From positions 1 to 28,236 of IMG/VR virus record IMGVR_UViG_3300035698_011058: a DNA stretch of 28,236 bases, one strand, 5' to 3'. The translations under genes were made by a program, and so were the position numbers. Positions 2,929 to 27,676 of this stretch are shown piece after piece. Under the pieces are notes generated by a model. The model did no database searches and had not been told where the DNA came from. It worked only from the letters and a program-made list of their open reading frames with translations. This DNA comes from a virus. How positions within the stretch are numbered: position 1 is the stretch's first letter; each line of letters opens with the position of its first letter.

Positions 2929-2942
2929 TGTCTTCCTTCGGC

Positions 2943-2964
2943 TGCTCACAAGTGTCGTGAGTCC
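2943..2964 (-). promoter_or_regulatory. 5'-leader stem-loop element, copy 1 (terminase mRNA)
   Basis: A 22-bp sequence repeated exactly at 20153-20174. Read on the minus strand it begins GGA, then forms CTCAC-GACACTT-GTGAG, a 5-bp stem with a 7-nt loop. It begins about 7 nt after a TATAAT -10 box, so the mRNA should start at or within a base or two of the element. It ends 14 bp before the start ATG, with the Shine-Dalgarno site between. Likely an mRNA 5' stabiliser or translation control element; that role is inference. Confidence 0.7.
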
Positions 2965-3608: not shown

Positions 3609-5798
3609 TTAAAGTTCTGCGGATGCCGTCCAGGAATAATTATAATACGCACCGTTATTTGTAGAGTCGCTTGTCATATAGCAACCAAATGAATCGACAT
3701 AATTATTTAATAATGTTGGGTTGGTTGTTGCAGGAAAACCAATCTCAGAACCATAAGCGAAAGTCATTGTGGGTGCAGCACGTTTTGTAGTTTTAAACCC
3801 AACAAAAGAGTGGTAATTTTGCCCACTGGTAGACATCCCCGACCATCCTTGGCCATATGTACCTGCACCAACTTCGTAGTACCTTTGACAAGCGTGGAGA
3901 TCCTCACCATATGGTTTTGCTTCAAATGCTGTGTATACTCCAATCTCTAGCTTTGCCCCTGATATCTCGATATAATCTCCAGTATCAACAGTAGTAGAAC
4001 CAAAAGCGGTATCGGCCGCAATCAAAGCGTACAATGAAAGGGCACTTGGCGCCGCAGTTATGGAGCTATTCCCTTGCAATAATTCCCAAGCTCCTCCACC
4101 AGTGTGGGTATTACTAGCAACTTCCGCACCTGTTGAATATAGTACTAACCTAGCATCTGCATTGTCTGATTTTACCCATGCGGATATCGTTACTGATGTT
4201 TGACCATTAAACTTAGTATAATATTCTATCGGCTGAGAAACCCCCATTACACCGTTGCCAGTATTTGTGGCAATCATTTTAAGAGATTTAGACCCTGACA
4301 ATGCTGCTGGTTGGCTAGCCGTTACTTGTTGAATGTCTGCTGTCGTCGTGGCCAGAGTCGTTTTCCATCTATCTATCGAATATGTACTATTGGTTGCTCC
4401 GGTAGCGGTAGTTATTGCAGTTCTTTGATTGATCTGTATATCCGCGTTGTCTAACCAATTTCGGTGAGGTGGTTCTACGGTTGTTCTACCATTAAGCAAT
4501 TCAAGCTCTGTCTGGTCTACTGTAGACACGTCAAAAGCAGATGTTCCATTGTATACAGGTACAAAATTGTCTGTACCTGCCGCCAATGGCGTTCCACCTG
4601 CAACAATGTAAACAGATGCCGAGGCGGTTGCTACGCTTAATATTCCCGTTGAGTCGAGATAGGCAACTTCTGTATTTGAATAGTTTCTGAAGGAAACAGT
4701 ATTAGCGCCAATATCATCTCCCATTCTAATGATTTGTTCTATTCCAGAGGGTACCGTAATAACATCGACATGATCTCTAGTCGTGATCATTTTACCAGAG
4801 CTGCTATGTGCATATGTTATTTCTGCAATCTCCATGACTTTGCCGGTCGAAGGTACAACATTAGTTAGATTACCTCCGGTAGCCATGTATACAGTATCGC
4901 CATCATTCCATGATTCGGAAGTACCTGGAGAACCAGTGCCATCGGTATCAATATTTGTTATTTCTCCGCCAATTCTTACTAATATTTGTTGACCGTCTGT
5001 TTTAGTTTCGGCCGCAACTCCTATTGCGTGAATCTTTGCGGAATTGGTATTATCACATAATGATACATCTGCTGTTTGACCAGTTGCCCCAGAAGTATAA
5101 ACACATTGACCTATTGTTATTCCTCCCGCTTCGCTAACCCTACCCTGTATAGTTAGTGCCGATGCAGCGGCAGCGCCCACATTAGTGATATTGCTTCCAT
5201 CACCAGCAAAAGCAACAGCGGATAGTTGCGTCCCGTCAAATGATAAGTTTGGAGATGATTTAACTCTATCGCTTGCGTCAAAGTATGCAACTTCTGTTGC
5301 AGTGCCAGAGCCGGTTACTACAGGTGTAGAGCTAACTGTTAACGTGCCTTGAAAGTCAGAGTCTAAGTAATGTATTACTGATGCACTAGAGGCAAGCATA
5401 ACGGGCGTTGATGCTGCTCTAATGTCTATTGTATCGACATCAGCAGTTGACTCAACGTTTATATAAGTATCGCCGTCAGCATCTTGTATCGCAGAGTTAA
5501 AACCACTTGATACTATTTGCGTCCAATTAGTAGAGGATCCACTGTCTGTTTTACGATAAATAGTCCCAGTTCCACTTTGAAAATACAAAGAACCCTCTGC
5601 ACCTGTTTTTGCAACAGAACTTGGATCATCAGTATCATTAGTTATAAATCTCAGGTCGCTACTTTTAAACTTAAAGTTAGACTTAAGTGCCTTAACATCA
5701 GATCCGTTAAATATAACCGCTTTGCCACCATATTGCGCATTAGCAGTAAAACATAAACAAGAGATCAAAAAGACAAAAGAAAATAGTAGAAACTTCAT
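3609..5798 (-). CDS. tail fibre / receptor-binding protein with an N-terminal signal peptide
   Basis: A 729-residue fibre-type protein with AAAGGAT before the ATG. Residues 1-21 form a typical Sec signal (MKFLLFSFVFLISCLCFTANA, cut after ANA), unexpected for a virion fibre; LISC within it also fits a lipobox. The N-terminal mature part contains GAEGSLYFQSGTGTIYRK and GSSTNW, a module seen in phage fibres. The middle is a Ser/Thr/Gly/Asp-rich beta-repetitive region. From about residue 445 comes NWLDNADIQINQR...YSIDRWK, then a jelly-roll-like domain and, near 635, ACQRYYE, all typical of carbohydrate-binding C-terminal domains of tail fibres. It probably binds the host surface. Four cysteines lie in the mature part. 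Neighbours are small virion-type proteins upstream and a membrane protein downstream. Confidence 0.85.
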   Translation of the reverse strand: MKFLLFSFVFLISCLCFTANAQYGGKAVIFNGSDVKALKSNFKFKSSDLRFITNDTDDPSSVAKTGAEGSLYFQSGTGTIYRKTDSGSSTNWTQIVSSGFNSAIQDADGDTYINVESTADVDTIDIRAASTPVMLASSASVIHYLDSDFQGTLTVSSTPVVTGSGTATEVAYFDASDRVKSSPNLSFDGTQLSAVAFAGDGSNITNVGAAAASALTIQGRVSEAGGITIGQCVYTSGATGQTADVSLCDNTNSAKIHAIGVAAETKTDGQQILVRIGGEITNIDTDGTGSPGTSESWNDGDTVYMATGGNLTNVVPSTGKVMEIAEITYAHSSSGKMITTRDHVDVITVPSGIEQIIRMGDDIGANTVSFRNYSNTEVAYLDSTGILSVATASASVYIVAGGTPLAAGTDNFVPVYNGTSAFDVSTVDQTELELLNGRTTVEPPHRNWLDNADIQINQRTAITTATGATNSTYSIDRWKTTLATTTADIQQVTASQPAALSGSKSLKMIATNTGNGVMGVSQPIEYYTKFNGQTSVTISAWVKSDNADARLVLYSTGAEVASNTHTGGGAWELLQGNSSITAAPSALSLYALIAADTAFGSTTVDTGDYIEISGAKLEIGVYTAFEAKPYGEDLHACQRYYEVGAGTYGQGWSGMSTSGQNYHSFVGFKTTKRAAPTMTFAYGSEIGFPATTNPTLLNNYVDSFGCYMTSDSTNNGAYYNYSWTASAEL

Positions 5799-5802
5799 GT
5801 AA

Positions 5803-6171
5803 TTATCCTTTAAAATTAATAGCTATGTAACCCGTTGATATAGCAACATCCTTCATATTCCTAAGACCTAAAGCAGTACCCGCCGGTAGCTTGACCTCAA
5901 CAGCGCCGCCGCCCAGAGGCAAGATACATTCAAGGACCGGAGTACCCGCTGGATCAGAATAAAGACCAATAAACTCTCCGATATCCTCAACCGATTGCAC
6001 CATTTGTATTTCATTTGCCAAGGATGCAACGATAGTGACGGGTGTAGCGGATGATTTTGGTATAGACGTTGTTCCCGTGTTTAATAGCGGGGTTGTATCT
6101 ATAAAATCTAAAACGTCTAGGTGCCTAATCTTCGTTTGTGTCACGGGTAATTTCATGTAACAAGTGCTCAT
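5803..6171 (-). CDS. small virion-type protein, function unknown
   Basis: A 122-residue, beta-rich protein (TPVTIVASLANEIQMVQS; GGAVEVKLPAGTALGLRNMK) directly upstream of the fibre gene and downstream of another small protein in the same transcript. GAGGA lies 7 nt before the ATG. The composition and ending (ISTGYIAINFKG) resemble short baseplate- or fibre-associated phage proteins that form one beta-sandwich. No signal peptide. A structural or fibre-attachment role is inferred only from position. Confidence 0.65.
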   Translation of the reverse strand: MSTCYMKLPVTQTKIRHLDVLDFIDTTPLLNTGTTSIPKSSATPVTIVASLANEIQMVQSVEDIGEFIGLYSDPAGTPVLECILPLGGGAVEVKLPAGTALGLRNMKDVAISTGYIAINFKG

Positions 6172-6173
6172 AG

Positions 6174-6524
6174 TTATATCCTCTTACAGTTAATTATTGC
6201 GCTTATTGATATCTCTCCCGAATCAATTGTCACATAAAGCCTAGCGTAGTAATATGAACACTCGTTAACTTCCCAATTGGAAGACCCAGCACCACTGATA
6301 ACACATTCGGAATCAGGTAAATCATACCAATTTATCCGATCTGTTGAGATTTGAATTTTAATAGAACCTGTTAATGCCGCCGTTTCCTCAGTCCATTGGG
6401 CCGAGATGTCGTACTTATTTTGATTTACTATTTGTTCGTTAGAGGCGGTGCTAGAATCATACGTTTGAACGCCGTTGCCGCCGAATAAACGGATAGCACC
6501 CTCTACTAGATTACTTGATGTCAT
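6174..6524 (-). CDS. small virion-type protein, first gene of the fibre transcript
   Basis: A 116-residue beta-rich protein with GGGGGA 6 nt before its ATG. Segments such as GSIKIQISTDRINWYDLPDS and YYYARLYVTIDSGEISISAI resemble the short beta-sandwich proteins common near phage fibres ('...qvStDg.nW...'). The gene begins a transcript read from the promoter at 6553-6582 and continuing into the fibre gene. The biochemical role is unknown. Confidence 0.65.
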   Translation of the reverse strand: MTSSNLVEGAIRLFGGNGVQTYDSSTASNEQIVNQNKYDISAQWTEETAALTGSIKIQISTDRINWYDLPDSECVISGAGSSNWEVNECSYYYARLYVTIDSGEISISAIINCKRI

Positions 6525-6552
6525 AAATTTCCCCCATTGAAGTGATATATAT

Positions 6553-6582
6553 ATGGTACGATATTAATACAGATTTTGACAA
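6553..6582 (-). promoter_or_regulatory. late-type promoter for the fibre transcript
   Basis: The minus strand has TTGTCA (6582-6577), an 18-bp spacer and TACCAT (6558-6553). Spacer and -10 match the scaffold promoter at 18 of 20 bases (GTATTAATATCGTACCATAT against GTACTAATATCGTACTATAT). Unlike the scaffold and terminase leaders, no hairpin element follows. Confidence 0.6.
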
Positions 6583-6609
6583 CAGAGAATTTACATTTAA
6601 AAATACTGT

Positions 6610-6714
6610 ATGAAAAAACTTAAGCGATATTTCGAAAAATTCGACTTGGTTGAAACTATAATGTTTTTGCTGGTTTCTCTTTTCGTTCTGGCCGGATGGT
6701 CATTTATTCACTAG
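6610..6714 (+). CDS. possible 34-residue single-pass membrane peptide
   Basis: An open frame encodes MKKLKRYFEKFDLVE, then a hydrophobic segment IMFLLVSLFVLAGWSFI, then a stop. A perfect TTGACA lies upstream (6576-6581), but no good -10 and no Shine-Dalgarno site are visible, and it overlaps the end of the convergent lysis-type gene by 11 nt. Charged head plus one TM is typical of small phage membrane peptides, but it may not be expressed. Confidence 0.35.
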   Translation: MKKLKRYFEKFDLVETIMFLLVSLFVLAGWSFIH

Positions 6715-7159
6715 TTGAATACGTTGCAGATCGTAGATCTATCGTTTTATGCGGTAATTGAAAATGAAAATGCAACGCAGTACCGCCATGATGTATACAT
6801 GTACAATGATTGTCTATTCTCTTATAATTCCTATTGCAATAGTCAACTATTTCTTTGGCTTCCTCGTCGGTAAATAGCCTTTTCCACCCATCATTTGTCC
6901 AATGCTGGTCTCTACCATCAAAGGCCAAATATTCTTGATGCACTCCACTTTCTTTAATACCGACTTTGCCTCTTATTCTAGTTATAAAAAGATGTTTGTC
7001 GTATAGCCGCTCAAGTCTATTATCTATATCAACAGCGAGCATTTGCAACATTTTAGGAGCACCGTAAAACTCTTTTGCAACTTGTGGGGTCTTAAAATTT
7101 ATCATGTAGTTACCTGTCAGTAGGTTTATAAGTGTAATTATTTCGATAACGTATACCAT
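6704..7159 (-). CDS. peptidase M15-like protein, candidate endolysin, with a hydrophobic N-terminus
   Basis: A 151-residue protein. SGVHQEYLAFDGR (residues 71-83) and HHGGTALHFHFQLP (123-136) resemble the zinc-binding layout of M15/DD-peptidase folds (His, Asp, later His): H74, D81 and H130 or H132 are candidate ligands. Such enzymes cut peptidoglycan peptides and serve as phage endolysins. The ATG used has GGAG 5 nt upstream, overlapping the previous stop, so residues 1-16 (MVYVIEIITLINLLTG) are probably translated and could be a signal-anchor; a second ATG at residue 19 has only a weak site. Small membrane proteins surround it, consistent with a lysis block. The match is distant, so other metal-dependent hydrolase roles are possible. 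Confidence 0.6.
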   Translation of the reverse strand: MVYVIEIITLINLLTGNYMINFKTPQVAKEFYGAPKMLQMLAVDIDNRLERLYDKHLFITRIRGKVGIKESGVHQEYLAFDGRDQHWTNDGWKRLFTDEEAKEIVDYCNRNYKRIDNHCTCIHHGGTALHFHFQLPHKTIDLRSATYSTSE

Positions 7160-7453
7160 CTATTCTCCGCAATAATCACTCCTTAACCTAATGCTTTCTT
7201 TCATCCAAGGCGTGATTTCAATTGCCCAAGCGTTTTTATGAAACCCTGTGAACTCCTCGCAGTAATCTAGATCCATTTCATAGACTTCACCAATCCGCTT
7301 TGCATTATATACATCATATTCATGACAAAAGCATGACTGAAAGTGAAAACTGATAGTACACCGCTCTTGAGGTTCAATTCTTGGTATCATTTTGCAATGC
7401 ATTGATTTACAACTACACATCGCCAATATTAGAAATATAAGCATCTTTGTCAT
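7160..7453 (-). CDS. cysteine-rich secreted or lipoprotein-like protein of the lysis region (outer-spanin candidate)
   Basis: A 97-residue protein beginning MTKMLIFLILAMCSCKSM: a short basic start, a hydrophobic core, then cysteines at 13 and 15 that only partly fit a lipobox. The mature part holds several more cysteines (CTISFHFQSCFCHEYD, YCEEF). Its start lies 41 nt inside the preceding gene and its stop abuts the start of the M15-like gene. Small cysteine-containing exported proteins beside an endolysin are often outer-membrane spanins, but the Pro-rich character of Rz1 is absent. Function is inferred from context. Confidence 0.55.
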   Translation of the reverse strand: MTKMLIFLILAMCSCKSMHCKMIPRIEPQERCTISFHFQSCFCHEYDVYNAKRIGEVYEMDLDYCEEFTGFHKNAWAIEITPWMKESIRLRSDYCGE

Positions 7454-7724
7454 TATTTAATACCGCCTCATCTAGCTTAGCTATTAACACTTTCCCCTGC
7501 TCAGTATCAACAACTCTCATTCCTTTTCTTACACAATGTAGGAGCACGGGTCCAACAAACTCATCAAACAATTCTTCTATCACAAAAACAGCAAGACGGC
7601 CCTTTAGGCCGCCTGTTGCACTGACTTTTAGGATCTCTTTTAGAAGTATCGAAGTTAAAGCACTTTTACTAAAAGCCAGGATAAGATCTTTAATTTTATC
7701 CTCGTCAAGGTTAAGGTCTGACAT
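7413..7724 (-). CDS. small helical protein of the lysis region
   Basis: A 103-residue protein, mostly amphipathic helix with one moderately hydrophobic stretch (GRLAVFVIEELFDEFVGPVL). It starts within the stop of the 59-residue gene (TAATG) and overlaps the next gene by 41 nt. I do not recognise it. Position places it in the holin/endolysin block; it is not hydrophobic enough to call a holin. Confidence 0.6.
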   Translation of the reverse strand: MSDLNLDEDKIKDLILAFSKSALTSILLKEILKVSATGGLKGRLAVFVIEELFDEFVGPVLLHCVRKGMRVVDTEQGKVLIAKLDEAVLNNDKDAYISNIGDV

Positions 7725-7903
7725 TATTTTTTAGTGACTGCCTTCATAATCTTACTTATAAAATATTCAGGACTTGCCTTAAGGGCAAATTCGGCCCCTA
7801 CGCCTTTCCCCTCATACCCTAGAGTTAAAACTAATTTACCATCTACATAATCAAATTCAATATCAAATTCTTTTGAAATTTCAACTTCTGCGATAGGATT
7901 CAT
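7724..7903 (-). CDS. 59-residue hypothetical protein
   Basis: A short gene that encodes MNPIAEVEISKEFDIEFDYV followed by DGKLVLTLGYEGKGVGAEFA and a helix ending KIMKAVTKK. AAGGAG lies 7 nt before the ATG, and the start sits inside the stop of the upstream membrane peptide (ATGA) while its own stop overlaps the next start (TAATG). This coupling and the good ribosome site make it real. Beta-strands followed by one helix; function unknown. Confidence 0.65.
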   Translation of the reverse strand: MNPIAEVEISKEFDIEFDYVDGKLVLTLGYEGKGVGAEFALKASPEYFISKIMKAVTKK

Positions 7904-8043
7904 TTCTTTCTCCTTGCTAAAACTTTTATAATAGAAAATACAATCTCAAAGACACTATTAGATTTTACTTTTGGTATCTGTGCTAATATCTCAGATATGG
8001 CCAATAGTGCCGTGAGAACTAATACTACCATTTGATTACTCAT
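7900..8043 (-). CDS. 47-residue membrane peptide (holin-like, lysis region)
   Basis: Encodes MSNQMVVLVLTALLAISEIL, then AQIPKVKSNSVFEIVFSIIK and a basic end VLARRKK. The pattern 'LLAxSE.LA.IP.vKsNSVFq' is one I recall from small membrane peptides next to phage lysis genes, which are of unproven function. One N-terminal TM plus an amphipathic C-terminus fits a small holin or holin partner. Both ends are coupled by 4-nt ATGA overlaps to the genes on either side, which argues strongly for expression. Confidence 0.65.
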   Translation of the reverse strand: MSNQMVVLVLTALLAISEILAQIPKVKSNSVFEIVFSIIKVLARRKK

Positions 8044-8342
8044 TTAGTTTTTGCTCCTTTGCCCTTTCTTCGGTTTACTTTAGTCTTTTTTTGGGCAATT
8101 CTGGCCAGGGATGCTTTAATTATCTCGGGTTCTTTCTTTTTTACCTTGATTATATCAGTAAACTTTTTAGTTTCAGCTTCCGAGGTAAGCAAAACATTAT
8201 AAACTGACCGGATACTCCTTGCCTGGAAAAACTCTTCGTTGTGCTTCATTACAATCATTCCAGAAATAGGATTTAACCAGCCATCATTATGGGCAAAACC
8301 CTCTCTAACAATTACTTTTACTTTATAATATTTATCCATCAA
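8040..8342 (-). CDS. 100-residue hypothetical protein with a basic tail
   Basis: Residues 1-60 look like a small beta-containing domain (YYKVKVIVREGFAHNDGW); the last 30 residues are very Lys/Arg-rich (QKKTKVNRRKGKGAKTK), suggesting nucleic-acid or membrane contact. It overlaps its neighbours by 4 nt at each end (ATGA), linking the exported 136-residue protein to the lysis-type membrane peptide. The family is not recognised. Confidence 0.65.
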   Translation of the reverse strand: MMDKYYKVKVIVREGFAHNDGWLNPISGMIVMKHNEEFFQARSIRSVYNVLLTSEAETKKFTDIIKVKKKEPEIIKASLARIAQKKTKVNRRKGKGAKTK

Positions 8343-8749
8343 TACACCTCGGTTACTGTTACAAATGCGCTTGCTGTAGCTTCTATTATACGAACATATG
8401 GTGTGGTAGTGTCAATCAAAAAATACTCCGTTGAGTTAGGAGGAATTAGCGCGTCATTAGTATCAGCTGCTGATATCGTTGCACCACCAAAAGAGATATG
8501 GGCCGCTTTGTCTATTGTTGTAACTCTGATAACTTTTGATTCCGCATATTTTTTTGTTTTACCTGCAAATGGATCAGTAGATGCTACTGGGGCCAGTTTG
8601 TAAGTGACCGATGGGGCACCTAATGCAAAGATGCTCATCGTGTCGTTGTTTGGCCATGTACCCATTCTTACATTTCTAGTTGTGTTGGGGATGATAGCGA
8701 ATAGATTAAATGATGCTAAAAAGATAGCTATAGCTATTAGTTTTTTCAT
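8339..8749 (-). CDS. small exported beta-rich protein (virion-type)
   Basis: A 136-residue protein starting with a clear Sec signal, MKKLIAIAIFLASFNLFA, after which the mature chain begins IIPN. The remainder is beta-rich (SKVIRVTTIDKAAHISFGGA; ALIPPNSTEYFLIDTTTPYV) and resembles short beta-sandwich phage proteins ('..aayI.fG...lip.g..e.f') that decorate heads or tails. It has no cysteine. Its start overlaps the end of the large ejection protein by 4 nt, so it belongs to the morphogenesis run. An export signal on such a gene is unusual. Structural role is inferred. Confidence 0.65.
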   Translation of the reverse strand: MKKLIAIAIFLASFNLFAIIPNTTRNVRMGTWPNNDTMSIFALGAPSVTYKLAPVASTDPFAGKTKKYAESKVIRVTTIDKAAHISFGGATISAADTNDALIPPNSTEYFLIDTTTPYVRIIEATASAFVTVTEVY

Positions 8750-10671
8750 TTCTTTTTCTCCTCTCTTCTGGAAGTATCACGTTTTGATTCTTGGAATATT
8801 GATTGGAATGCTGGCCTTACCAATTTAGATGGCACCTTAACTGCCTTGGCTGCGGCCTTTGCTGTCTGTCTAACTGCCTGAGCGCCTAGCCCTCCTATTG
8901 CAAAGTTAAAAGGGTGTGTCATTATCTGAGTTATAGCAGTCCCTGATGGGTTTATAGGCTCACCGATTTGCGATAGATAAGTTAGGTTGTTTCTGAGTGT
9001 TTTAAACTGTCTCGCTCCTATTGCTTCTTTAATAACTTCGTTCTTCTTGTTGATCTCTTTTAAAACAGTCGGTGCACTAAAAGATCCCTTTGCTGTCTTC
9101 TTCTTGAAAATGTCGAAAATATATTGCTTCCCTGCATCTTCTACTGTCTTTTTATCGACGACGTTTGAAAACTTTTTTAATGATTTTGTATCTAAAAAGA
9201 TCTTATCCAATACCCTTTCAGATGCTGCCTCTTTTTTGCCCAGTAGCCCCACTGATCCAAGATCTTCTCTTTTAAGTATCTGATCACGCCACAGATCCCT
9301 GGCCTTAGTAAATTTCTTGGCAAGCTCTGGATTCTGTAGTTTTAAGAGATCCCCGGTTTCATTCTTGAACTGGTCCGAAGCTTTACTTAATAGAACGTCT
9401 GAAAACTCTCTCTTTTGACCAAAATTAATGGAGCTATCTATTGTTTTTCTAAGGGCGTCTATGGTGTTTACGTTAACGCCCTCTGTTTTGTTTAGCTCAT
9501 CAAAAACATCCCCTAGCACACCCTGGACTTTTAGCCACTGGTCTTTAGCGACACCTGTCGCTGCTGAGTAATCTTTTGGAACGATGACACCGTCTACGGC
9601 CTTGAACATGTCAAGTTCTTGTATCTTCCCTAGAAACCTACCTTTAAATGCCCTCGATGGTATCTCGAGCCGCTTGCCTTCTTTCGCTACCTCTTGGAAT
9701 AGTCTTGATGCTTCATTCTTTATTTTGGTAACAGTCGTATTGGCCACATCTTTAAGGCCCTCACCTATTACTCCCCTTTTTGTATCTAAATCTAAATCAC
9801 CGATGATGTTTTCTACTTTCAATCTGGCGAGTTTTTGTTGTTTGGACACTGCTTTGTTGATTGATCTCCCGACTATTGGTAGCTCTGCCAATGCTCTCTC
9901 TTGTTTTCCAAGGAATCCACCGGCCATTTGACCAAATGTTGGGCTTGGTAAACCTTCTTCCGCTGCAATACCTGCTAGTTTTTGACCACCCTCTGATAGT
10001 ACCTTTGGTGCAAGTGCTCTAAAGCCTTTGCCTATAAGTTGACCACCACCCTCGCCAGCGCCACTTAAAAGCCCGGCCAAAGCTATCTCTTTTGCTCTCT
10101 CGCCACCTGATGCTACTTGTGGTATCCCGCCTTGGGCCGCAAGCAATTGTCTTGCTCCTGATCCCACGGCACCACCTAGTGCGGCACCTCCTATCGCCCC
10201 TGGTACATTCCCTAAAGCTGCCCCGGCTATGCCGCCTAAAGCACCCCCTGCCAACTCTGGTAATGCGCCAGCAAACTCTGCAACATCGGCCTCGCTAAAG
10301 CCTGGTGCATTTACTGGTCTTATTTGACCGTCTTGCAAAACGCTATAATCGCCAGCTTCATCCTTAAAGACGTTACCCTCTCCAAATTGTTGGATAAGCG
10401 CAGCTTCTCTATTTGCTAGCAATGGTTCAGTTGAAAATGCAAGCCTTTGTGTCACACCTAAAGAGGCCTCTGGTATCTCTGGTATTGGTGCTAACTCTTG
10501 GGCGACTCTTGCCTGTTCTTCTGCGACAGCTTGGTTTAACTGTTCTTCTGATAGAGCGTCTAATTGTATATTTGAAACACTCGGCGGTGCCTGGGTTGGG
10601 GCTTCTTGTGCCTGTAAACCAGTAACCGCTTGGTTAAGTTGCTCGTCTGACAATTGATTCAAGTCAACCAT
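8746..10671 (-). CDS. large ejection / internal virion protein
   Basis: A 641-residue protein, third of three consecutive ejection-type genes. The N-terminus carries a duplicated motif (LNQLSDEQLNQAV and LDALSEEQLNQAV). Residues of about 130-185 form a Gly/Ala-rich hydrophobic block (PELAGGALGGIAGAALGNVP), as in internal proteins that enter the host envelope with the DNA. The rest is long, charged and helical, ending in a basic tail (RDTSRREEKKK). I see no lytic transglycosylase motif. Location after nozzle and tail protein, and before the lysis region, is standard for the ejectosome of P22-like podoviruses. Family membership is inferred from composition and order. Confidence 0.75.
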   Translation of the reverse strand: MVDLNQLSDEQLNQAVTGLQAQEAPTQAPPSVSNIQLDALSEEQLNQAVAEEQARVAQELAPIPEIPEASLGVTQRLAFSTEPLLANREAALIQQFGEGNVFKDEAGDYSVLQDGQIRPVNAPGFSEADVAEFAGALPELAGGALGGIAGAALGNVPGAIGGAALGGAVGSGARQLLAAQGGIPQVASGGERAKEIALAGLLSGAGEGGGQLIGKGFRALAPKVLSEGGQKLAGIAAEEGLPSPTFGQMAGGFLGKQERALAELPIVGRSINKAVSKQQKLARLKVENIIGDLDLDTKRGVIGEGLKDVANTTVTKIKNEASRLFQEVAKEGKRLEIPSRAFKGRFLGKIQELDMFKAVDGVIVPKDYSAATGVAKDQWLKVQGVLGDVFDELNKTEGVNVNTIDALRKTIDSSINFGQKREFSDVLLSKASDQFKNETGDLLKLQNPELAKKFTKARDLWRDQILKREDLGSVGLLGKKEAASERVLDKIFLDTKSLKKFSNVVDKKTVEDAGKQYIFDIFKKKTAKGSFSAPTVLKEINKKNEVIKEAIGARQFKTLRNNLTYLSQIGEPINPSGTAITQIMTHPFNFAIGGLGAQAVRQTAKAAAKAVKVPSKLVRPAFQSIFQESKRDTSRREEKKK

Positions 10672-11705
10672 TAGAAACCCCTGGCCCTTAAAAAGTTAAT
10701 TTTCTCTTCCCTTGTCATTTGCTCTGGAGCGGTGCCTGCCGGTGGCCCTGCCTGCGGTGCTATCGGTCCCGCTACCGCTTGGGGGATCACATTCAATTGA
10801 GGAGATTGGTCTAGCGGTGGCTGTAGTGCAGCAGTTCCTGGTGGCAATGGCCCAGCAAATTGCTGCTCGCCTGGTCTAATTATGCCTGGGACATCTGGCA
10901 ATGGTGTATCGAAACTAACAGCGGAGGTATCGAATCCGGCCTTGGTCAAGGTGTCTACAAGCCCTCGTTGTTTAGTGACCAACAGTCTATTTACGTTGGC
11001 CAATTTGTTTTCGGCAACCTGGGGTGTGTCACCTAGTTTTGGAAACATCTTTGCGTATTTTATCTCATCTTCCTTTCTTAAAACCCCACCTTCCATGTAT
11101 CTACCAAATGCCTGTGATGTCGCTCGTATTTGTGAGTCCATTGTCTGCGCTCTGGTATCATAAGGGTTTAGCCCGGCAACTGTTCCTTTTATGGGACCGA
11201 ACACATCTTGGTTTTGGCTTATAGTGGTCTTGATATCCTCTAATAATTCCGGGATGAGAGATCCTTCATTTACATTGGTGATGTCTTTAGCACTTAGACT
11301 CTTCGGAGCATTTGATTTAATCTCCAGCTGGGCAGCAAACTTCTTCCCTTCTCTGGTCTGAATGAATGGCTTATTTAGTTCAGCTACTTCTCCCTTTAGC
11401 TTCTGTTTTTGTAGCGATTCAATCTCTCTCTTGTTGGCCCCTATCCTACCGCCGGCCTCTGCTATCACTCCAGCGATCCCAGACAAAGCCTCGGCATCTC
11501 CTTTAGTGAAGGAGTCTTGTATCTTTTGGGCATCTTCTGCGCTCAGCGGGACAGACTGTGATAACTGTTGGATAGTCTGTACACCTAGCAACGCATTTTT
11601 TCTCCTTTCCGATTCTTTTTTCGAAGCAGTTTCTTCTTGCTGCTTCCCTAGCTGTTGAAGACTCTGGAACCCCGCTAAAAGTGTCGATATACCGTCGTTG
11701 GCCAT
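10671..11705 (-). CDS. ejection / internal virion protein
   Basis: A 344-residue soluble helical protein with a Pro/Gly/Ala-rich C-terminus (GPLPPGTAALQPP...). The central segment, with GPIKGTVAGLNPYDTRAQ, then GGVLRKEDEIKYAKMFPKLGD and a helix of type NKLANVNRLLVTKQRGLVDTL, is a module I recognise from internal proteins of many podoviruses. The end EKINFLRARGF is also typical. It overlaps the next gene at the stop codon, and follows the 196-residue ejection protein. It probably forms part of the conduit ejected with the genome; the exact role is not visible. Confidence 0.75.
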   Translation of the reverse strand: MANDGISTLLAGFQSLQQLGKQQEETASKKESERRKNALLGVQTIQQLSQSVPLSAEDAQKIQDSFTKGDAEALSGIAGVIAEAGGRIGANKREIESLQKQKLKGEVAELNKPFIQTREGKKFAAQLEIKSNAPKSLSAKDITNVNEGSLIPELLEDIKTTISQNQDVFGPIKGTVAGLNPYDTRAQTMDSQIRATSQAFGRYMEGGVLRKEDEIKYAKMFPKLGDTPQVAENKLANVNRLLVTKQRGLVDTLTKAGFDTSAVSFDTPLPDVPGIIRPGEQQFAGPLPPGTAALQPPLDQSPQLNVIPQAVAGPIAPQAGPPAGTAPEQMTREEKINFLRARGF

Positions 11706-11714
11706 ATCAGCCTC

Positions 11715-12305
11715 CTATATTCTAGATTGAGTTAAAGACTGTCCAGTGCCAACGCCAAGCTGACCGCCGACCCCAGCGCCTTGTGTTCCACCTAACGATC
11801 CACCGATGCCTGCACCTGCAGCTCCTAAGATCGCCGGTAATATACCACCCTGTCTAGACCTTGCTGGCGTTGCCCCTGCTATTGTCCCTGGTTGCCCAAG
11901 CACTTGCCCTGCCGCACTTAATCTTTGCAGTTGTAATTGTCTTATTCTTTCAGGAAGGGAGAGTCTTGCTTCTTGTATCTGCTGGCCAAATTGCTGTTCT
12001 AACCCAGCTTGGTGACCTAGCCCAACTGATGTTGTGCCGAGTCCTCTTCTTGCCATAAGGTCTTGCAGTCTTCTCCTGGCGTCGTCCCTTTGCCCTGCTA
12101 GTCCTCTAGTCTCGCGCTCTACCTCTTGCCCTGCAATCTTCTCAGCAGGTGCAGATCCTAAAGATTCCAGCCCTGCCAGTTGTTGTTTCCTGGCCTCTGC
12201 CTGCACTGATAAAAGTTGACCTGGGAGCCTTTGCCCTTGTGGTGTCGTTGGCTTACCAAATAGTAGATTCTTATGACCTGTCGCAATTTTGTTAAAAATA
12301 CCCAT
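11715..12305 (-). CDS. small ejection / internal virion protein
   Basis: A 196-residue protein, strongly helical with many Gln, Arg and Leu, containing LMARRGLGTTSVGLG (about residues 83-97), a motif found in small internal virion proteins. The C-terminus is hydrophobic and Gly-rich (ILPAILGAAGAGIGGSLGG), suggesting membrane insertion on ejection, comparable in layout to P22 gp7-type proteins. It is the first of three consecutive ejection-type genes. No enzymatic motif seen. Confidence 0.75.
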   Translation of the reverse strand: MGIFNKIATGHKNLLFGKPTTPQGQRLPGQLLSVQAEARKQQLAGLESLGSAPAEKIAGQEVERETRGLAGQRDDARRRLQDLMARRGLGTTSVGLGHQAGLEQQFGQQIQEARLSLPERIRQLQLQRLSAAGQVLGQPGTIAGATPARSRQGGILPAILGAAGAGIGGSLGGTQGAGVGGQLGVGTGQSLTQSRI

Positions 12306-12314
12306 TATTATCTC

Positions 12315-13241
12315 CTAATTTTGAAAACCTACTAGCCATATCTCAAAACTGACCGCTGCACTGCTTGTTAGAAACTCTAGCTTCCCATTAGTCCCTGTCT
12401 GTACCCAAGCAGATCCAACCTCACCAGTGTTGCCTTGAATGTTAATCATTGCTGTACTGATGTCCGAGCCATCTGCGCTCATCCAATCTTCTGTATTGTT
12501 GCTAGGTCTGAAAGCTATTCTCATTGCCCCGCCCATATCAACTTTAAGGAAAACCATAGTTTGCTTACCGCCAACCCAATGGCTAATATCTAGAGTAGTC
12601 CATACTGTTGAGTTAACAGCATATGCCCTCACTGGCGTTCCAACAGGTTGCCATCCATTAGGTAGAATATCATTCTTTACCCACTGGAATACTGAGTAGG
12701 TAGCAATATGGTTATCCTTATCATTGTAAAATTTACCCATAACTTTGTTATCGCTAGTATCATAACCATTTTCGCCGGGTGCTGTTGTTAAAATAAGGGG
12801 AGTCAATGTAGAGTCATTTGATGTTGATTTAGCATAAACATAATATTCGGTGCCTGTTGCTTCTGCGCTACAACCGGTACAGCCCCATGTCGCTGCTGTA
12901 GTGGTCGCAGTCTGCATAAAGTTACCATTGATGGCCATTGTGCAATTACCGATCGAAAGGTTAGCGTTATCTGTTCTAGTAACTTTGCAACCTTCTGCAA
13001 TTCCCTCTAGGAGTACACCAAAAGCTGTTGTGTCTAAGGCATCTTTTATAATGGTACCACTTTGAATACATTCCCCATCTTGAGAGTTAGCAGCGCTGTA
13101 GACGGTATTAAGATCCACATTGTATCTACTCGCCGTGAGTCCGTCTCCAGTTACTACATCAGTTCTACTAATTGCAGTACATGCTGAGGAAACTGCTTTT
13201 GATATTAAGATCATAAAAATCAACAGTACAAAATTTCTCAT
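12315..13241 (-). CDS. exported tail-appendage protein with six cysteines
   Basis: A 308-residue protein beginning with a good Sec signal (MRNFVLLIFMILISKAVSSA, predicted cut before CTAIS). The mature part has exactly six cysteines, at ACTA, GECI, EGCK, GNCT and WGCTGC, an even number that fits disulfides formed after export. The C-terminal 120 residues (from NGWQPVGTPVRAYA) form a beta-rich domain ending EIWLVGFQN, like the terminal domains of phage appendage or fibre proteins. It lies 3 nt after the nozzle gene and before the ejection genes, where tail needles, fibres or plugs often are. Both structural and secreted roles remain possible. Confidence 0.7.
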   Translation of the reverse strand: MRNFVLLIFMILISKAVSSACTAISRTDVVTGDGLTASRYNVDLNTVYSAANSQDGECIQSGTIIKDALDTTAFGVLLEGIAEGCKVTRTDNANLSIGNCTMAINGNFMQTATTTAATWGCTGCSAEATGTEYYVYAKSTSNDSTLTPLILTTAPGENGYDTSDNKVMGKFYNDKDNHIATYSVFQWVKNDILPNGWQPVGTPVRAYAVNSTVWTTLDISHWVGGKQTMVFLKVDMGGAMRIAFRPSNNTEDWMSADGSDISTAMINIQGNTGEVGSAWVQTGTNGKLEFLTSSAAVSFEIWLVGFQN

Positions 13242-13243
13242 AA

Positions 13244-15130
13244 TTAATTCCTATTTCCATTTTTAGAAAAATCAAGCTGCGCCCTTACCAGTGCCATGTT
13301 TGCATTAACAGCTTCCTGGTAAAGACCTATCCTAATATTTTCACCTACTCTGTTAATATCAGACCTGGCAGTTACTATTTTATTTTCCTGGCCAAAGGTT
13401 GTTGTGTCGCCAAATACGAAAGTTCCTATAATGATCCCCGTGCTGTCGTCAAATGTATATGTATGTTCCTCTGAGTCTGACAGATCATCGTAATCTATCC
13501 ACACTTTGATAGTCATAGTATTTCGGGAGAAACTTCTAACTAGAAATTCCCTAAAGTTGAATGAAGCATCAAGATCATCACCGTCAAGCCAAATAGTGTG
13601 TGCATAAGCAGAAATAGTATCAATTGCGTTGTTTGAGTCGACATCCGTTCTATCCTCTTTGATAGAGTGAGTGTAAATATATCCACTAGTATCCGCTAAG
13701 AATACTGTTTCGTCATTAGCGCTATCTTCTCCGCTTGTCGCATCTACAAAGTTTAGATTAAACTCATAAGGGTAAAATCCCCCGACCTCAAACTGATAAA
13801 CATAAGCTTTTTTAAAGAATATGTTCCCACCTTCCGCTACAAATGTAATGTATTGGTCTAAAACTGGGTAATAAACAGAGAAAAAGTCGCTAAACTTGCT
13901 AGTGTTTACTTGATTTGCCCATCCAGGACGCTTAAATATATCGTCAATGTCGCCATTTGCAAGAGTAATAGGATTATCATCTTTACTAACCATAATTCCA
14001 TCAATGATTGCCCTCCACCCCTGAGTCGATAACCAAAATACTGCACCGTTTTTAACTTCTATAGTTTCATTGGATACGCAACCTATTTTCTGGTTAAGTG
14101 TTACTAGCCGAGCAAAGCCCTCTCTTTCTGAGTAAATATGTGTTGACGTTTTCTTGAATATTACTAGAAATGGATCGAGCACACTGTTGTTATAAAATCC
14201 AGTGGCCAGACCCGTAATATCACCGTCTCCTGATATGTTTAAAACTGTTTGGGTAGCAGTGTTGTCGAAAGCATCTGGTAAGTATTGCTCTGAAAACCAT
14301 ACATCGTTTTTAAAGGTGCTATTACCTGCATAGGCAAGCTTTGCATTAAACTCTGTTAGATACTTTGCCCCACCCGCTAAAGGCTTACCGTGTGTTGTTG
14401 GTGGTGTTGAGGTATTGCTAGAGTCAACCGTTATGCTATAATTTGTTGTTCCCAACGGCAATTCTGCTATAAACAACGAAGATCCTGAGTCCTTAGACAT
14501 ATATATTCGAATTTTATCGATACTAGAATTAGTTGAGTTGCTTATAATGTTTGTGACTGCTATCTCGCTATCAGGAGTAGCTACCGTAACCGCATCTGCT
14601 TTATTGCCATTATTTGTTTCGAATCCTGTTGTACTCGAATAAAAAGTGTATGAAATTTCATATTCCCCATCAGCTATAGAACCAGATGAAACAACAAGTG
14701 TAGTAGTTGGTGCTAATGGAGGATCTAGCCCCAGCTTATCGACAACAGTACCATCGTACGACAAAAGCCCGGTTGATCCAGCGGCGACAACGTGCCTATT
14801 GTTGAGCGTTAGCCCTCTATGCTTCTCTGTAGCATCTACACCGGAATACACTTCTGTCTTGGCCCCATTCTCATCTATTGAATAGAGGGAAGAACCTGCT
14901 TTTGCTATAACATATTTTTCATTATCTACATCTTTAAAAAAGCTTAGAGATTGTAATCCACTTATTGGCGTTGATATAAACCGGGAGAAACCAAATCTAG
15001 TGTCTAGACGTTCACTTGTGGCATAAACATTCCTGGCATCACTTAATTTGTTAGCCGTTTCACCGACCCTATAGCTAACAGGTATAGCAAAACTCTTCCA
15101 TTTGCCTGATGCTCTTTTAGACAACGCCAC
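13244..15130 (-). CDS. tail nozzle / hub protein (P22 gp10-like stabilisation protein)
   Basis: A 628-residue beta-rich protein immediately after the adaptor gene (adjacent stop and start). The opening KLSDARNVYATSERLDTRFG (about residues 28-47) is the typical start of podovirus nozzle proteins. Repeated beta-blades follow (LSSFF..., TGLLSYDGTVV, VFWLSTQGWRAIIDG, VFLADTSGYIYTHS), as expected for a propeller. Residues of about 145-255 form an Ig-like insertion with RIYMSKDSGSSLF that resembles the insertion in the adaptor protein. It extends the tail tube below the adaptor. It has a single cysteine, no signal peptide, and ends 3 nt before the exported tail protein. Confidence 0.85.
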   Translation of the reverse strand: MALSKRASGKWKSFAIPVSYRVGETANKLSDARNVYATSERLDTRFGFSRFISTPISGLQSLSFFKDVDNEKYVIAKAGSSLYSIDENGAKTEVYSGVDATEKHRGLTLNNRHVVAAGSTGLLSYDGTVVDKLGLDPPLAPTTTLVVSSGSIADGEYEISYTFYSSTTGFETNNGNKADAVTVATPDSEIAVTNIISNSTNSSIDKIRIYMSKDSGSSLFIAELPLGTTNYSITVDSSNTSTPPTTHGKPLAGGAKYLTEFNAKLAYAGNSTFKNDVWFSEQYLPDAFDNTATQTVLNISGDGDITGLATGFYNNSVLDPFLVIFKKTSTHIYSEREGFARLVTLNQKIGCVSNETIEVKNGAVFWLSTQGWRAIIDGIMVSKDDNPITLANGDIDDIFKRPGWANQVNTSKFSDFFSVYYPVLDQYITFVAEGGNIFFKKAYVYQFEVGGFYPYEFNLNFVDATSGEDSANDETVFLADTSGYIYTHSIKEDRTDVDSNNAIDTISAYAHTIWLDGDDLDASFNFREFLVRSFSRNTMTIKVWIDYDDLSDSEEHTYTFDDSTGIIIGTFVFGDTTTFGQENKIVTARSDINRVGENIRIGLYQEAVNANMALVRAQLDFSKNGNRN

Positions 15131-16120
15131 CTACAGCCCCCAACCATCTGAGTTACCAACAACGTCGCGAACTCTTTTAGAAAGATGCGTCGTCGATGCT
15201 GTCCTAGAAATAAAGTTAGATAGGAGTTCTTCATATTTCTGTAGTTTACGCTCTTGACCATCCCTGTCCCTATATTCATAGCCAAGAGAAATAACCCCAG
15301 CTTTCAAAACTGGCTTTAACCATTCTGGAATAGTTGGTATGCTAGTTACTACTTGATATAAATCGGTTGGCCTTCTGTAATAGTAAAAACTTAAAGTGTC
15401 AGCAGTCGATGGTTTGGGATAAAGCAAAACCTCTTCTTGAGATAATGCCGCCCAGTATTGAGGTGTACCGCTAGAAAAAGCACCTGGGAAAACTAATCTC
15501 ATTTGATCTTGATCCATATACTTTAACGTTCTATTAGTGGAAGTCTCAAAAAAGATTTCGCCATAAAGTTTTCTAATGTTGTTTGTGTCTTGAACTTCTA
15601 TTGTGCTTGTGGTGTCTGCTGTAACCGATGCTATAACAGCGGTATTATTACTTATCGTGCTGTAGTAGTAGAAAGCTCCGCCATCCTTACTTACATAAAT
15701 ACGTCTTGCCGTAACAAGAGGCTCTGCTGATACAGGAATTGCAGTAATATTGATAGTCTTGTTCACCGCTGTTGCCGTTACCGTAGCGGATACCGCACTA
15801 GCTACCGACTCATTATGTGTCGTTCCTTCATAGAAAGAAACTTTAACAGCATATGTTGATGTGTCTACTAAAGAACCACCGGAAGCGATAGTTGCCGTTG
15901 AAGCAATTGGCGCGGAAATAATCAATGTTTGGGCCTCTACACTGGCAGTTAAAACCTTTTTACCCTTAACTTTTAAGAAATCCCAATCGTGTCTAGCGCA
16001 AATATCTCGTTGAGTATCATTAAGCCAACCAAGAACCTTGGACTGAAAACCAGTGCTAGCATCACCTAGAAGAGTCGATAACTCAGTTACAAGGCTTGAG
16101 CCTGTCCACGAAACGGCCAT
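15131..16120 (-). CDS. head-tail adaptor (P22 gp4 / tail tubular protein A type) with an Ig-like insertion
   Basis: A 329-residue protein. The helical start (LVTELSTLLGDASTGFQSK, LGWLNDTQRDICARHDWDFL) and the later segment ending FYYYRRPTDLYQ with IPEWLKPVLKAGVISLGYEY match the podovirus adaptor that plugs the portal. Between them, residues of about 65-180 form an Ig/FN3-like insert with TARRIYVSKDGGAFYYYSTI. GGGGGCGG precedes the ATG. The gene sits between small virion protein and nozzle, the normal place. Insertions of this kind are known in neck proteins, and here the same module appears in the next gene. Confidence 0.85.
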   Translation of the reverse strand: MAVSWTGSSLVTELSTLLGDASTGFQSKVLGWLNDTQRDICARHDWDFLKVKGKKVLTASVEAQTLIISAPIASTATIASGGSLVDTSTYAVKVSFYEGTTHNESVASAVSATVTATAVNKTINITAIPVSAEPLVTARRIYVSKDGGAFYYYSTISNNTAVIASVTADTTSTIEVQDTNNIRKLYGEIFFETSTNRTLKYMDQDQMRLVFPGAFSSGTPQYWAALSQEEVLLYPKPSTADTLSFYYYRRPTDLYQVVTSIPTIPEWLKPVLKAGVISLGYEYRDRDGQERKLQKYEELLSNFISRTASTTHLSKRVRDVVGNSDGWGL

Positions 16121-16138
16121 ACCGCCCCCTTTATTTTA

Positions 16139-16411
16139 TTAGTTACCGTAAACTATCAAAGAACCTTTATCGCTATTCCCTACGCCATCAATGTAGACGC
16201 TACCTGGAGCTGTTGTAGATCCAGTATCCGAATAATTCTTGTAAACTATTCCATGATCATCGGTAGTTGTTGGAGAGTAGTCTGCGTGTAGAATGTTTTG
16301 CAATCCTGTGGCAATCTTGCCAGCGGTTACACTTGCAAATGATAGATCATAAATCTGAATTTTTAGTGTTCCAAAATTGTCATCTTTAATCTTTGTTGCT
16401 ACTAATGCCAT
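16139..16411 (-). CDS. small virion-type protein
   Basis: A 90-residue beta-rich protein (FGTLKIQIYDLSFASVTAGK; GSVYIDGVGNSDKGSLIVYG) whose start lies 26 nt inside the end of the polymerase/ligase-like gene. It precedes the adaptor. The composition is that of a small head or neck decoration protein. No signal peptide and no cysteine. The overlap suggests the membrane gene is well settled in the operon, not a recent passenger. Confidence 0.6.
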   Translation of the reverse strand: MALVATKIKDDNFGTLKIQIYDLSFASVTAGKIATGLQNILHADYSPTTTDDHGIVYKNYSDTGSTTAPGSVYIDGVGNSDKGSLIVYGN

Positions 16412-17552
16412 GTATATCCCCTTGATCTGATGCTATTAACGAATAGCAAATAATTCCAATTAGAGATGTTGCAGCGATATGAAAGGGAAAGCTCCCAAGT
16501 GAATCAATCAATATCGCTAACAAACATGGTACTAGTATAATACTTTTATTAGCGGTAAATAAAGGCTTAATGATAATCAATAGTAAAATAATCCCTATTA
16601 TCCCAAAAGCTATATAGAACTCAAGGTATTCATTGTGAGTTTGGAGAAATATTTTTCTCGCTTGAAAGTATTTATTATAGTTATCCCCAAAGAACCCAAG
16701 ACCCCTACCAATCCACATATCAAGACCTGATGACCATCCAACAGTATTCTGCCAAACCTCAAATCTACCTGAATCTTGTACGAATTTACTGCCGTAAGCG
16801 ATTATGAGATTATAACCAACTAACAAAGTCAACCCAACAGATATAAACATAAACTTTAGATTTGCGCGGTATTTCAATAGAAAATAGGACACTGTCGCCA
16901 CTATTGTCGATAGATATATCATGGAACTGTCGGACAAATAGACGCCGTATAAGGCGATAGGTAGTAAAAATACCCACTTTTTTCTAGTTAACGTCGTCAA
17001 AGTTATTGGAATCATTACACCGGATATCGTTCTGTTGCCGATGCTGCCGATTATGTCAGTTTCATGGCCAGTAAACGGAACCGCCGTGCCCTCTCCCATA
17101 TATAGTTTCGTAAACCTTCCTGGATAGCAAATGTCAAAGTAGATTTGATAAGGGTCAATGCCGAAACTATTGAGAATCAACCATACTGATTGAATTATAC
17201 AAGCAATTGCCATTGCATTATAAATAACTCTTTTATTTATTTGCCTAGAATTGCCTAGAAACTGTGATAAAAGCATAAACCCCGCATTTAGGCAGAAGAA
17301 TTGATATAAAACTGCATCGGATGTGGGTAAGTATTGACGAAAAAACGAGTAAATCGATAGTACCCCCATCGGGATAATAATTAGCTTAAATCTTTTTAGT
17401 GGATTCTCTTGATAACCGAAAAGGATAACTGAGAGATAGACCAGTGCCATAAATAGCGTATCCTGCCCGAATCGAACATCTGCACCGTTATATATCCTAA
17501 AATAAAGAGGGAGGCAGATAATCGCTGCCCCCCAATAAAGTGAAAAAATCAC
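16386..17552 (-). CDS. O-antigen polymerase/ligase-like membrane protein (Wzy/WaaL superfamily)
   Basis: A 388-residue protein with about ten to eleven transmembrane segments. GSIGNRTISG (169-178) resembles the GTxGNxN motif of Wzy/WaaL proteins; the large periplasmic loop follows, with SGRFEVW (261-267), IGRGLGFFG (281-289) and THNEYLEFYIAFGIIG (305-320), which match the R..W, G.G.G.f and HN.yl....e.G..G signature. Such enzymes polymerise O-antigen repeats or ligate them to lipid A core in the inner membrane. It begins with GTG, has no clear Shine-Dalgarno site, starts 3 nt after the decoration gene and overlaps the next gene by 26 nt. A phage copy could alter host surface sugars (serotype conversion, exclusion of other phages). 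Family confident; substrate unknown. Confidence 0.8.
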   Translation of the reverse strand: MIFSLYWGAAIICLPLYFRIYNGADVRFGQDTLFMALVYLSVILFGYQENPLKRFKLIIIPMGVLSIYSFFRQYLPTSDAVLYQFFCLNAGFMLLSQFLGNSRQINKRVIYNAMAIACIIQSVWLILNSFGIDPYQIYFDICYPGRFTKLYMGEGTAVPFTGHETDIIGSIGNRTISGVMIPITLTTLTRKKWVFLLPIALYGVYLSDSSMIYLSTIVATVSYFLLKYRANLKFMFISVGLTLLVGYNLIIAYGSKFVQDSGRFEVWQNTVGWSSGLDMWIGRGLGFFGDNYNKYFQARKIFLQTHNEYLEFYIAFGIIGIILLLIIIKPLFTANKSIILVPCLLAILIDSLGSFPFHIAATSLIGIICYSLIASDQGDIHGISSNKD

Positions 17553-17555
17553 TAA

Positions 17556-18065
17556 CTAGAGAAGATTAATAAATACTGGGACATTTGCTGTTGCACTTGA
17601 ATGGTCCATGAAGACACCAACATCATGCAAAAAAGCAGGATCCGTTTTAGCAACGACTGCGCCAACAGCTCTAACCGATCCGGCAGTGTTGTTATCCATG
17701 TAAGCTGGCTCACCTGGAGTCGCTACAGTAGAAGAACCTGGAGCATAAGTTACACTTCCAACACCGTATACCTGGCATTTACCAGAAGCGCCTTCTGCAA
17801 TAGCTTCAGCAGCTACACACAAAGGTTTTTTGTAAACAGATGTGGTCGTGGTGGCGTACATGCCATTGTCAGCACTTTCGGAAGTGTCAACTACCACAAC
17901 TTGACCTGCGGCGATAGAGCCGGTTGCCGAATAAATTCTTACAAAAATGTTGTCTTGGTAGTTGACAGTCCCTGTATTTGTTCGATCACTTGAAAATGAA
18001 TTTGCGATAATACCAAAGGCATTAAGTGACAAAAGCATTGTAAACACTAAAACTAAACTTTTCAT
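17556..18065 (-). CDS. head decoration-like protein (DUF2190-like pattern) with a signal peptide
   Basis: A 169-residue protein 12 nt after the major capsid gene, the usual place of capsid decoration proteins. Residues 1-18 (MKSLVLVFTMLLSLNAFG) form a typical Sec signal; the mature part begins IIAN. Then comes a beta-rich chain with ATGSIAAGQVVVVDTSE, CVAAEAIAEGASGKCQVYG and a Gly/Ala/Val pattern reminiscent of DUF2190-type head decoration proteins ('G.vv......G.a.....G....g.a..'). Two cysteines are in the mature chain. A capsid-surface protein should not need export, so either the signal is used for something else or it is not a virion protein. Assignment to decoration is from position and pattern. 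Confidence 0.7.
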   Translation of the reverse strand: MKSLVLVFTMLLSLNAFGIIANSFSSDRTNTGTVNYQDNIFVRIYSATGSIAAGQVVVVDTSESADNGMYATTTTSVYKKPLCVAAEAIAEGASGKCQVYGVGSVTYAPGSSTVATPGEPAYMDNNTAGSVRAVGAVVAKTDPAFLHDVGVFMDHSSATANVPVFINLL

Positions 18066-20138: not shown

Positions 20139-20152
20139 TGTCTCCCCTTGGT

Positions 20153-20174
20153 TGCTCACAAGTGTCGTGAGTCC
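20153..20174 (-). promoter_or_regulatory. 5'-leader stem-loop element, copy 2 (scaffold/capsid mRNA)
   Basis: Identical over 22 bp to 2943-2964. On the minus strand it starts 8 nt after the TACTAT -10 box, so it should be the first bases of the transcript: GGA, then CTCAC-GACACTT-GTGAG. It ends 14 bp before the start ATG and AAGGGGAG lies between. The bases around it differ between the two copies, which points to selection on the element itself. Confidence 0.75.
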
Positions 20175-20806: not shown

Positions 20807-21011
20807 CAGCGATAGCCTTGAACACAATTTAAAATTAATACTAGAGATGGTCAAAAGCCCCGCACATTTCACTAATGTTTGCCCTATTTGCGCAAACCCC
20901 TTCATGAAAACAAGCGACGACACTTACCAAGAGTTTATGTGTGGGCATATAACCCGAATAGGATATGTCTATTTCTCTAAGATAACGGACCCATTCTCTT
21001 TTGAAGACTAA
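20784..21011 (+). CDS. small zinc-ribbon-like protein
   Basis: A 75-residue protein starting at GTG with a strong AGAAGGAGG just upstream. CPIC (about residues 33-36) and a later CGHITRIGY form a CxxC...CxH zinc site. Its stop overlaps the stop of the convergent portal gene by 4 nt, so there is no room for a terminator. Function unknown. Confidence 0.6.
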   Translation: MVTEEKHSSDSLEHNLKLILEMVKSPAHFTNVCPICANPFMKTSDDTYQEFMCGHITRIGYVYFSKITDPFSFED

Positions 21012-27649: not shown

Positions 27650-27676
27650 CGGACTCACACAGGCTATTCTTTAATA

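Follow-up and report, generated by a model that had tools for sequence, protein, structure and literature searches.

Tailed phages are, in the textbook account, assembled in the cytoplasm until lysis, and Wzy_C proteins act at the outer face of the inner membrane on undecaprenyl-linked glycans. Why should a Wzy_C gene lie among the structural genes of a tailed phage? We analysed the IMG/VR virus record IMGVR_UViG_3300035698_011058, a stretch of 28,236 nucleotides (28.2 kb) that is here called the window and that carries a P22/SU10-like podovirus structural run on the minus strand. Four virion-type genes of this run begin with predicted Sec signal peptides, and the one in the position of a decoration (cement) gene is followed by a gene for a Wzy_C protein.

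The closest described systems are the O-oligosaccharyltransferases (O-OTases) PglL and PilO (TfpO) with their adjacent acceptors. O-OTase genes mostly adjoin that of the acceptor (21 of 31 lie beside pilins; PilO stands beside pilin and PglL beside ComP), and those of PglL and PilO are typically found beside the target gene and outside lipopolysaccharide (LPS) loci; O-OTases have the Arg and His of the Wzy_C motif in common with WaaL, and the PglL_A motif marks the PglL subclass only, PilO also being without it (Schulz 2013, PMC3643930). The window is alike in that a Wzy_C membrane protein is encoded co-oriented beside a small protein with an export signal, that the Arg and His of the motif are conserved, and that the gene lies outside an LPS locus (PMC3643930). 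It differs in that the phage genes belong to structural modules and that the candidate acceptor is of decoration or fibre type, with a class I signal and not that of a type IV pilin. The phage proteins do not reach the PglL_A motif, but PilO, too, is without PglL motifs.

In gene order (portal, scaffold, major capsid protein (MCP), decoration, adaptor, nozzle) the window resembles the P22/SU10-like podoviruses, which include Myxococcus phage Mx8; its MCP is 34% identical to that of Mx8, and the next gene of Mx8 bears the annotation of a major virion structural protein. No Wzy_C gene, however, is annotated beside the Mx8 MCP. Phage-borne Wzy-type membrane proteins are also encoded by genes of lysogenic conversion, as in P. 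aeruginosa phage D3 and in Acinetobacter prophages, but in both cases outside the structural run and without a known signal-bearing decoration partner. As to glycosylation of mycobacteriophage virions, we know of no Sec signal on the acceptor and of no Wzy_C enzyme. Tailed phages of this kind have been proposed to glycosylate the capsid with enzymes of their own (Maravista, PMC11256854); the glycosyltransferases there are proposed for a cytoplasmic capsid. Within the library of papers searched, the literature on signal peptides in tailed phages, on Maf in phages and on phage O-OTases yielded no precedent, and the arrangement in the window appears to be unlike any tailed phage that we found described.

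Sec signals on four virion-type genes

The genes at issue, with the MCP gene, are as follows (the caret marks the predicted cleavage site).

17556-18065, minus strand: protein in the decoration (cement) position, 169 residues, predicted Sec signal at residues 1-18, MKSLVLVFTMLLSLNAFG^IIAN
16386-17552, minus strand: multi-transmembrane Wzy_C protein (O-antigen ligase/PglL/PilO family; Pfam PF04932, E 7.6e-11)
12315-13241, minus strand: cysteine-rich fibre-like protein after the nozzle, predicted Sec signal MRNFVLLIFMILISKAVSSA^CT, mature part starting C..ISRT
8339-8749, minus strand: small protein after the ejection genes, predicted Sec signal MKKLIAIAIFLASFNLFA^IIPN, apparently gained relative to homologues
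3609-5798, minus strand: tail fibre, 729 residues, predicted Sec signal MKFLLFSFVFLISCLCFTANA^QY (PHROG phrog_4492, tail fiber protein)
18078-19031, minus strand: MCP, SU10/P22-like, the anchor for finding relatives (phrog_9953, E 6e-66; PF17236)

All signal calls were made with a heuristic that we wrote, which demands a basic n-region, an uncharged 9-residue core with a mean Kyte-Doolittle value of at least 2, and small residues at -3/-1. The four genes, already singled out in an earlier note on this DNA, all pass it and have the features of class I (signal peptidase I) Sec signals; they are the only passes among the 29 window genes of at least 100 residues. Equally in line with that note, none of 47 scaffold, coat, portal, adaptor, nozzle and ejection proteins from the window and its relatives passes. 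The background rate, taken from related phage contigs of the Maf type described below, was 10 of 761 open reading frames (ORFs), which gives P = 5e-4 for four or more in the window; when the residues of these proteins are shuffled, 1-5% of trials pass. Sequences resembling a Shine-Dalgarno (SD) site stand directly 5' of all four ATGs, and alternative downstream starts are either lacking or would delete conserved mature sequence. Misassigned start codons are ruled out by these SD sites together with the conserved cleavage columns.

Cysteine accounts for 2.0% of the residues after the signal (97/4826) in signal-bearing proteins, compared to 0.26% (48/18258) in virion proteins without a signal. 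The odds ratio is 7.8, and the per-protein Mann-Whitney value of 2e-8 is optimistic, since the sequences are related. This enrichment is independent support for an oxidising destination.

Pairing with a Wzy_C gene

The Wzy_C gene, which the earlier note overlooked, sits between the decoration and adaptor genes and begins 4 bp after the former. Among MCP relatives, the contigs in which PF04932 exceeds its cut-off are precisely the six whose decoration protein bears a signal; contigs L011, L013, L049 and L051 lack the two genes together. A scan of IMG/VR with an alignment of the Wzy_C proteins left 23 distinct loci once duplicates were taken out, and in 22 of them the next gene upstream encodes a signal (in L173 via an internal start). 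We then wrote down the pairing as a prediction before a second scan with an alignment from other lineages. This returned 14 new loci: a signal-bearing gene stands upstream in 12, one locus is truncated and another is ambiguous (12 of 13 assessable). Because the loci come from one collection and are phylogenetically non-independent, Fisher tests overstate significance. The capsid proteins encoded at Wzy_C loci form at least five groups between which no similarity was detected, one of them of a Phage_capsid_4/ChaB type. Signals were also called on 15.5% of the other ORFs in Wzy_C contigs, compared to 1.3% of ORFs in Maf contigs; calls made in the scan for the upstream gene of L142 and the nozzle of L179 were rejected as false. 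Residues R263, H306, N307, E308 and E311 of the Wzy_C protein (numbered from the start codon) are invariant in 23 of 23 phage members; R263 and H306 are the catalytic-type Arg and His of the motif.

At one locus (L162:8840-12537), four signal-bearing genes of 151, 615, 170 and 286 residues follow in a row directly after the Wzy_C gene.

The signal-bearing proteins and their relatives

The signal is kept in all six decoration proteins, with Ala at -3 in every one and Ala or Gly at -1. Pairwise identity is lower in the hydrophobic region (25%) than in the mature part (39%), and cysteines C83 and C97 are invariant in the six relatives. Pfam Phage_cement_2 matches the window protein at the border of significance (E 3.7e-5, 24.5 bits for a cut-off of 24) and three of the six family members; the position after the MCP is the one expected. 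A pattern scan for cement with the window protein as sole query gave no match. In another signal-bearing protein, of the L205 type, the body matches a neck fibre of Anabaena phage A-1(L) at 36% along 101 residues (E 5e-4). L205 itself (IMGVR_UViG_2829002044_000001) has a signal-bearing cement-like gene with a Wzy_C cassette, and its identifier, which lies outside the metagenome series, may be that of a single genome.

The post-nozzle fibre could be read in nine contigs (window, L003, L005, L013, L049, L051, L160, L167, L171) and bears a signal in every one; its mature forms start C..ISRT or similar. In L013 it contains the Phage Tail Collar domain (PF07484, E 2e-24). A lipoprotein reading of this fibre (SSAC) was rejected, as there is no proper lipobox and the position of the Cys varies among relatives. 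In the tail fibre, residues 197-728 match positions 572-1096 of the phrog_4492 profile (E 2.9e-28) and positions 1-571 are unmatched, the Sec signal replacing the long N-terminal region of the profile. Its signal has parallels in other signal-bearing fibres (L050, L051, L165), not a conserved orthologue.

The small protein 8339-8749 behaves differently. Two homologues, L070:2188-2571 and L046:18361-18729 (contigs of L003 and L005), are without a signal and in the alignment start at about the predicted mature N-terminus of the window protein, for which a local gain of the signal seems the best reading. The earlier note had named homologues starting downstream of the hydrophobic segment as evidence against its signals; such homologues exist for this protein, whereas the decoration protein and the post-nozzle fibre keep their signals throughout. 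Similarly, L010 has a Sec signal on the small protein that follows Wzy_C (8383-8709), and the proteins in that position in L003, L005 and L009 have none. Because of these signal-free homologues and counterparts, the signals give the impression of mobile segments added at the N-terminus of virion-type domains. The idea that host sequences were captured finds no support in the protein bodies, which are Phage_cement_2, Phage Tail Collar and PHROG tail fibre domains; mobility is suggested for the signals only.

Large virion-type proteins starting with Sec signals were seen in L173 (10085-11704) and L182 (10690-13116 and 13103-15717), where they match PHROG virion structural, internal virion protein and tail entries. 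By these sequences, nozzle-like parts may be exported too in some lineages.

A Maf-type enzyme in the same slot of cousin phages

What do relatives without the Wzy_C gene carry in its place? The decoration protein of more distant MCP relatives (35-40%) is without a signal. Between it and the small protein, in the very slot of Wzy_C, these phages encode a PF01973 (MptE-like/Maf) protein; a glycosyltransferase had been expected there ahead of the search. This replacement, too, escaped the earlier note, whose overall interpretation stands in part. In the PDB the Maf profile matches one entry only, 5mu5 (E 1.4e-4), which we take to be the Magnetospirillum Maf structure. The gene upstream of Maf passes the heuristic in one of 62 loci, and that single pass is spurious. 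NeuB/PseI (PF03102) occurs in 26 of 35 Maf contigs and PF02719 (PseB-like) in 18 of 35; PseB and PseH are present in G006, and in one Maf contig the two are accompanied by a cytidylyltransferase and an aminotransferase. NeuB was found in none of the 29 signal/Wzy_C contigs, as expected if such phages use a host lipid-linked glycan.

The slot enzymes of the cousins, with their NeuB/PseB/PseH-type genes, are thus like the Maf nonulosonate transferases (nearest families PF01973 and 5mu5). The bacterial enzymes, however, are cytoplasmic and act on flagellin, and the window's clade has a membrane Wzy_C protein instead. The simplest reading of the gene content is that the enzymes encoded in this slot would glycosylate the neighbouring decoration protein, in the cousin group with a phage-made nonulosonate in the cytoplasm and in the window's group with a host lipid-linked glycan in the periplasm. 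Such a swap between Maf with a cytoplasmic acceptor and Wzy_C with an exported one is a direct, testable genomic rule.

Genes for nonulosonic acid synthesis were also noted in a Maf-type phage at L077:2934-6459 (contig of L006). Maf-type phages of this sort are a large, apparently undescribed group that, judging by its genes, probably glycosylates its virions.

Virion proteins of two compartments?

How could exported parts come to belong to a virion? We propose that capsid, portal, adaptor and nozzle would be made in the cytoplasm as usual, and that the decoration protein and the fibres would be sent via Sec to the periplasm, where signal peptidase I would cleave them and disulphides could form. 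The Wzy_C protein would be a phage-encoded O-OTase of the PglL/PilO type and would attach a host lipid-linked glycan to the decoration protein in the periplasm, which is encoded next to it and is probably its cognate acceptor. At lysis, the exported parts with their sugars would come together with packaged heads to complete the virion; in vitro, P22 tailspikes are able to attach to heads that are already finished. We lean towards this scheme as a whole. Export, which the earlier note had suggested, is well supported by the conserved signals and cleavage columns, by the cysteine enrichment and by recurrence in many phages. The Wzy_C neighbour and its replacement by Maf in the cousins suggest that the proteins are exported in order to be glycosylated. 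From the same sequences we infer that they are glycosylated, that they are in fact exported and cleaved, that the enzyme is an O-OTase and not a lipid ligase, and which protein is its acceptor. That the parts would join the virion during lysis or later, in line with the earlier note's reading of virions finished in the periplasm, is speculative.

Several observations weigh against this proposal. The fibre signals remain in phages without Wzy_C (L013, L049, L051), and therefore export cannot be for the Wzy_C enzyme alone. PglL_A (PF15864) has no match over the cut-off in any phage Wzy_C member and one below it (L196/G071), so that sequence alone cannot separate an O-OTase from WaaL or Wzy; we class the phage proteins as Wzy_C proteins that would act like a cognate O-OTase, not as members of PglL. 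AlphaFold2 models of the Wzy_C protein (pLDDT, the model's own confidence score, 59; no PDB match) and of the decoration protein (pLDDT 48) were too poor to support a fold. The signal-bearing decoration protein was not significantly joined to that of the Maf clade by hhalign, and their equivalence is drawn from gene position. In L163, L170 and L179 a separate cytoplasmic decoration-like protein precedes the signal-bearing one, and in such lineages the chief cement may be another protein than the exported one. A tblastn search of INPHARED with the Wzy_C, fibre, decoration and Maf proteins found no isolate relative, and two profile searches of genome contigs with MCP alignments found no relative and hence no host link. 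A periplasmic predator as host, as the earlier note had speculated, has no support, given that no genome-resident relative was found and that many phage lineages unrelated to one another share the arrangement.

Could the Wzy_C protein instead be a late O-antigen or capsule polymerase or ligase that remodels the host's surface polysaccharide, for superinfection exclusion or to keep progeny off debris, with the upstream protein as a periplasmic partner or envelope protein and no part of the virion? The family spans polymerases and ligases, PglL_A is not reached, and prophage-borne capsule conversion is reported in Acinetobacter (PMC13228068). Yet the genes stand 4 bp apart within the head-tail structural run and not in a conversion module, the partner of Wzy_C has a decoration or fibre-type domain, the cousins have a Maf-type protein glycosyltransferase in the same slot, and fibres bear signals too. 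We consider this account unlikely, though a real contender.

Quite unlikely, too, is that the signal-bearing proteins stay with the infected cell, in its periplasm or on its surface, as receptor decoys or blockers that never enter a virion. A tail fibre with a Sec signal where its family profile has a long N-terminal region would suit such a role, as would late export during infection and the separate cytoplasmic decoration-like gene that some lineages retain. The window's clade, however, shows no other decoration gene or fibre there, so that its virions would lack such parts, and the large signal-bearing Tail-Collar fibres and nozzle-like proteins (L013, L173, L182) are hard to see as decoys. 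That the hydrophobic N-termini are uncleaved membrane anchors or virion-docking peptides, for instance for assembly at the inner membrane, is very improbable: a few cores are long (L002, L005) and the calls are heuristic, but most cores are short, small residues are invariant at -3/-1 in six of six decoration proteins, cysteine is enriched downstream of the segment, and homologues of 8339-8749 exist without it.

If the proposal of exported, glycosylated decoration proteins and fibres holds and the process is routine, assembly must finish outside the cytoplasm and virions may carry the sugar coat of their last host; signal-bearing phage genes, now dismissed as host-like or misannotated, would form a recognisable class. 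The wider notion, that tailed phages of several capsid lineages build a two-compartment virion in which cytoplasmic heads are joined at lysis by exported, disulphide-bonded decoration proteins and fibres (in some lineages perhaps also nozzle-like proteins) that a phage-encoded oligosaccharyltransferase has O-glycosylated with host glycan in the periplasm, is plausible to us but short of probable.

Other features of the window

The remaining genes of the structural run are listed below.

822-2949, minus strand: terminase
8746-12305, minus strand: ejection-type proteins
13244-15130, minus strand: nozzle/head-closure-like protein, no signal (phrog_8040, phrog_511)
15131-16120, minus strand: adaptor (SU10_adaptor), no signal (PF24175, E 8e-15)
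16139-16411, minus strand: small protein after Wzy_C
19041-20159, minus strand: scaffold
21008-22963, minus strand: portal

Positions 7160-7453 encode a small, cysteine-rich, lipoprotein-like protein (MTKMLIFLILAMCSC) beside a possible endolysin (6704-7159), likely as part of a lysis cassette. Low-complexity tandem codon repeats with overlapping frames lie near contig ends at 27664-28229 of the window, L075:3724-3963 and L069:3-413, and encode Gly-Tyr-Gly-Ser, Leu-Trp and Lys-Arg-Ser-Thr-Phe. Several members of this phage family, BUCT555 and ppBjS10J-1 included, encode a small GNAT-type acetyltransferase between the nozzle and the ejection genes (L005:13907-14233, L049:14030-14374, L066, L065, L068).

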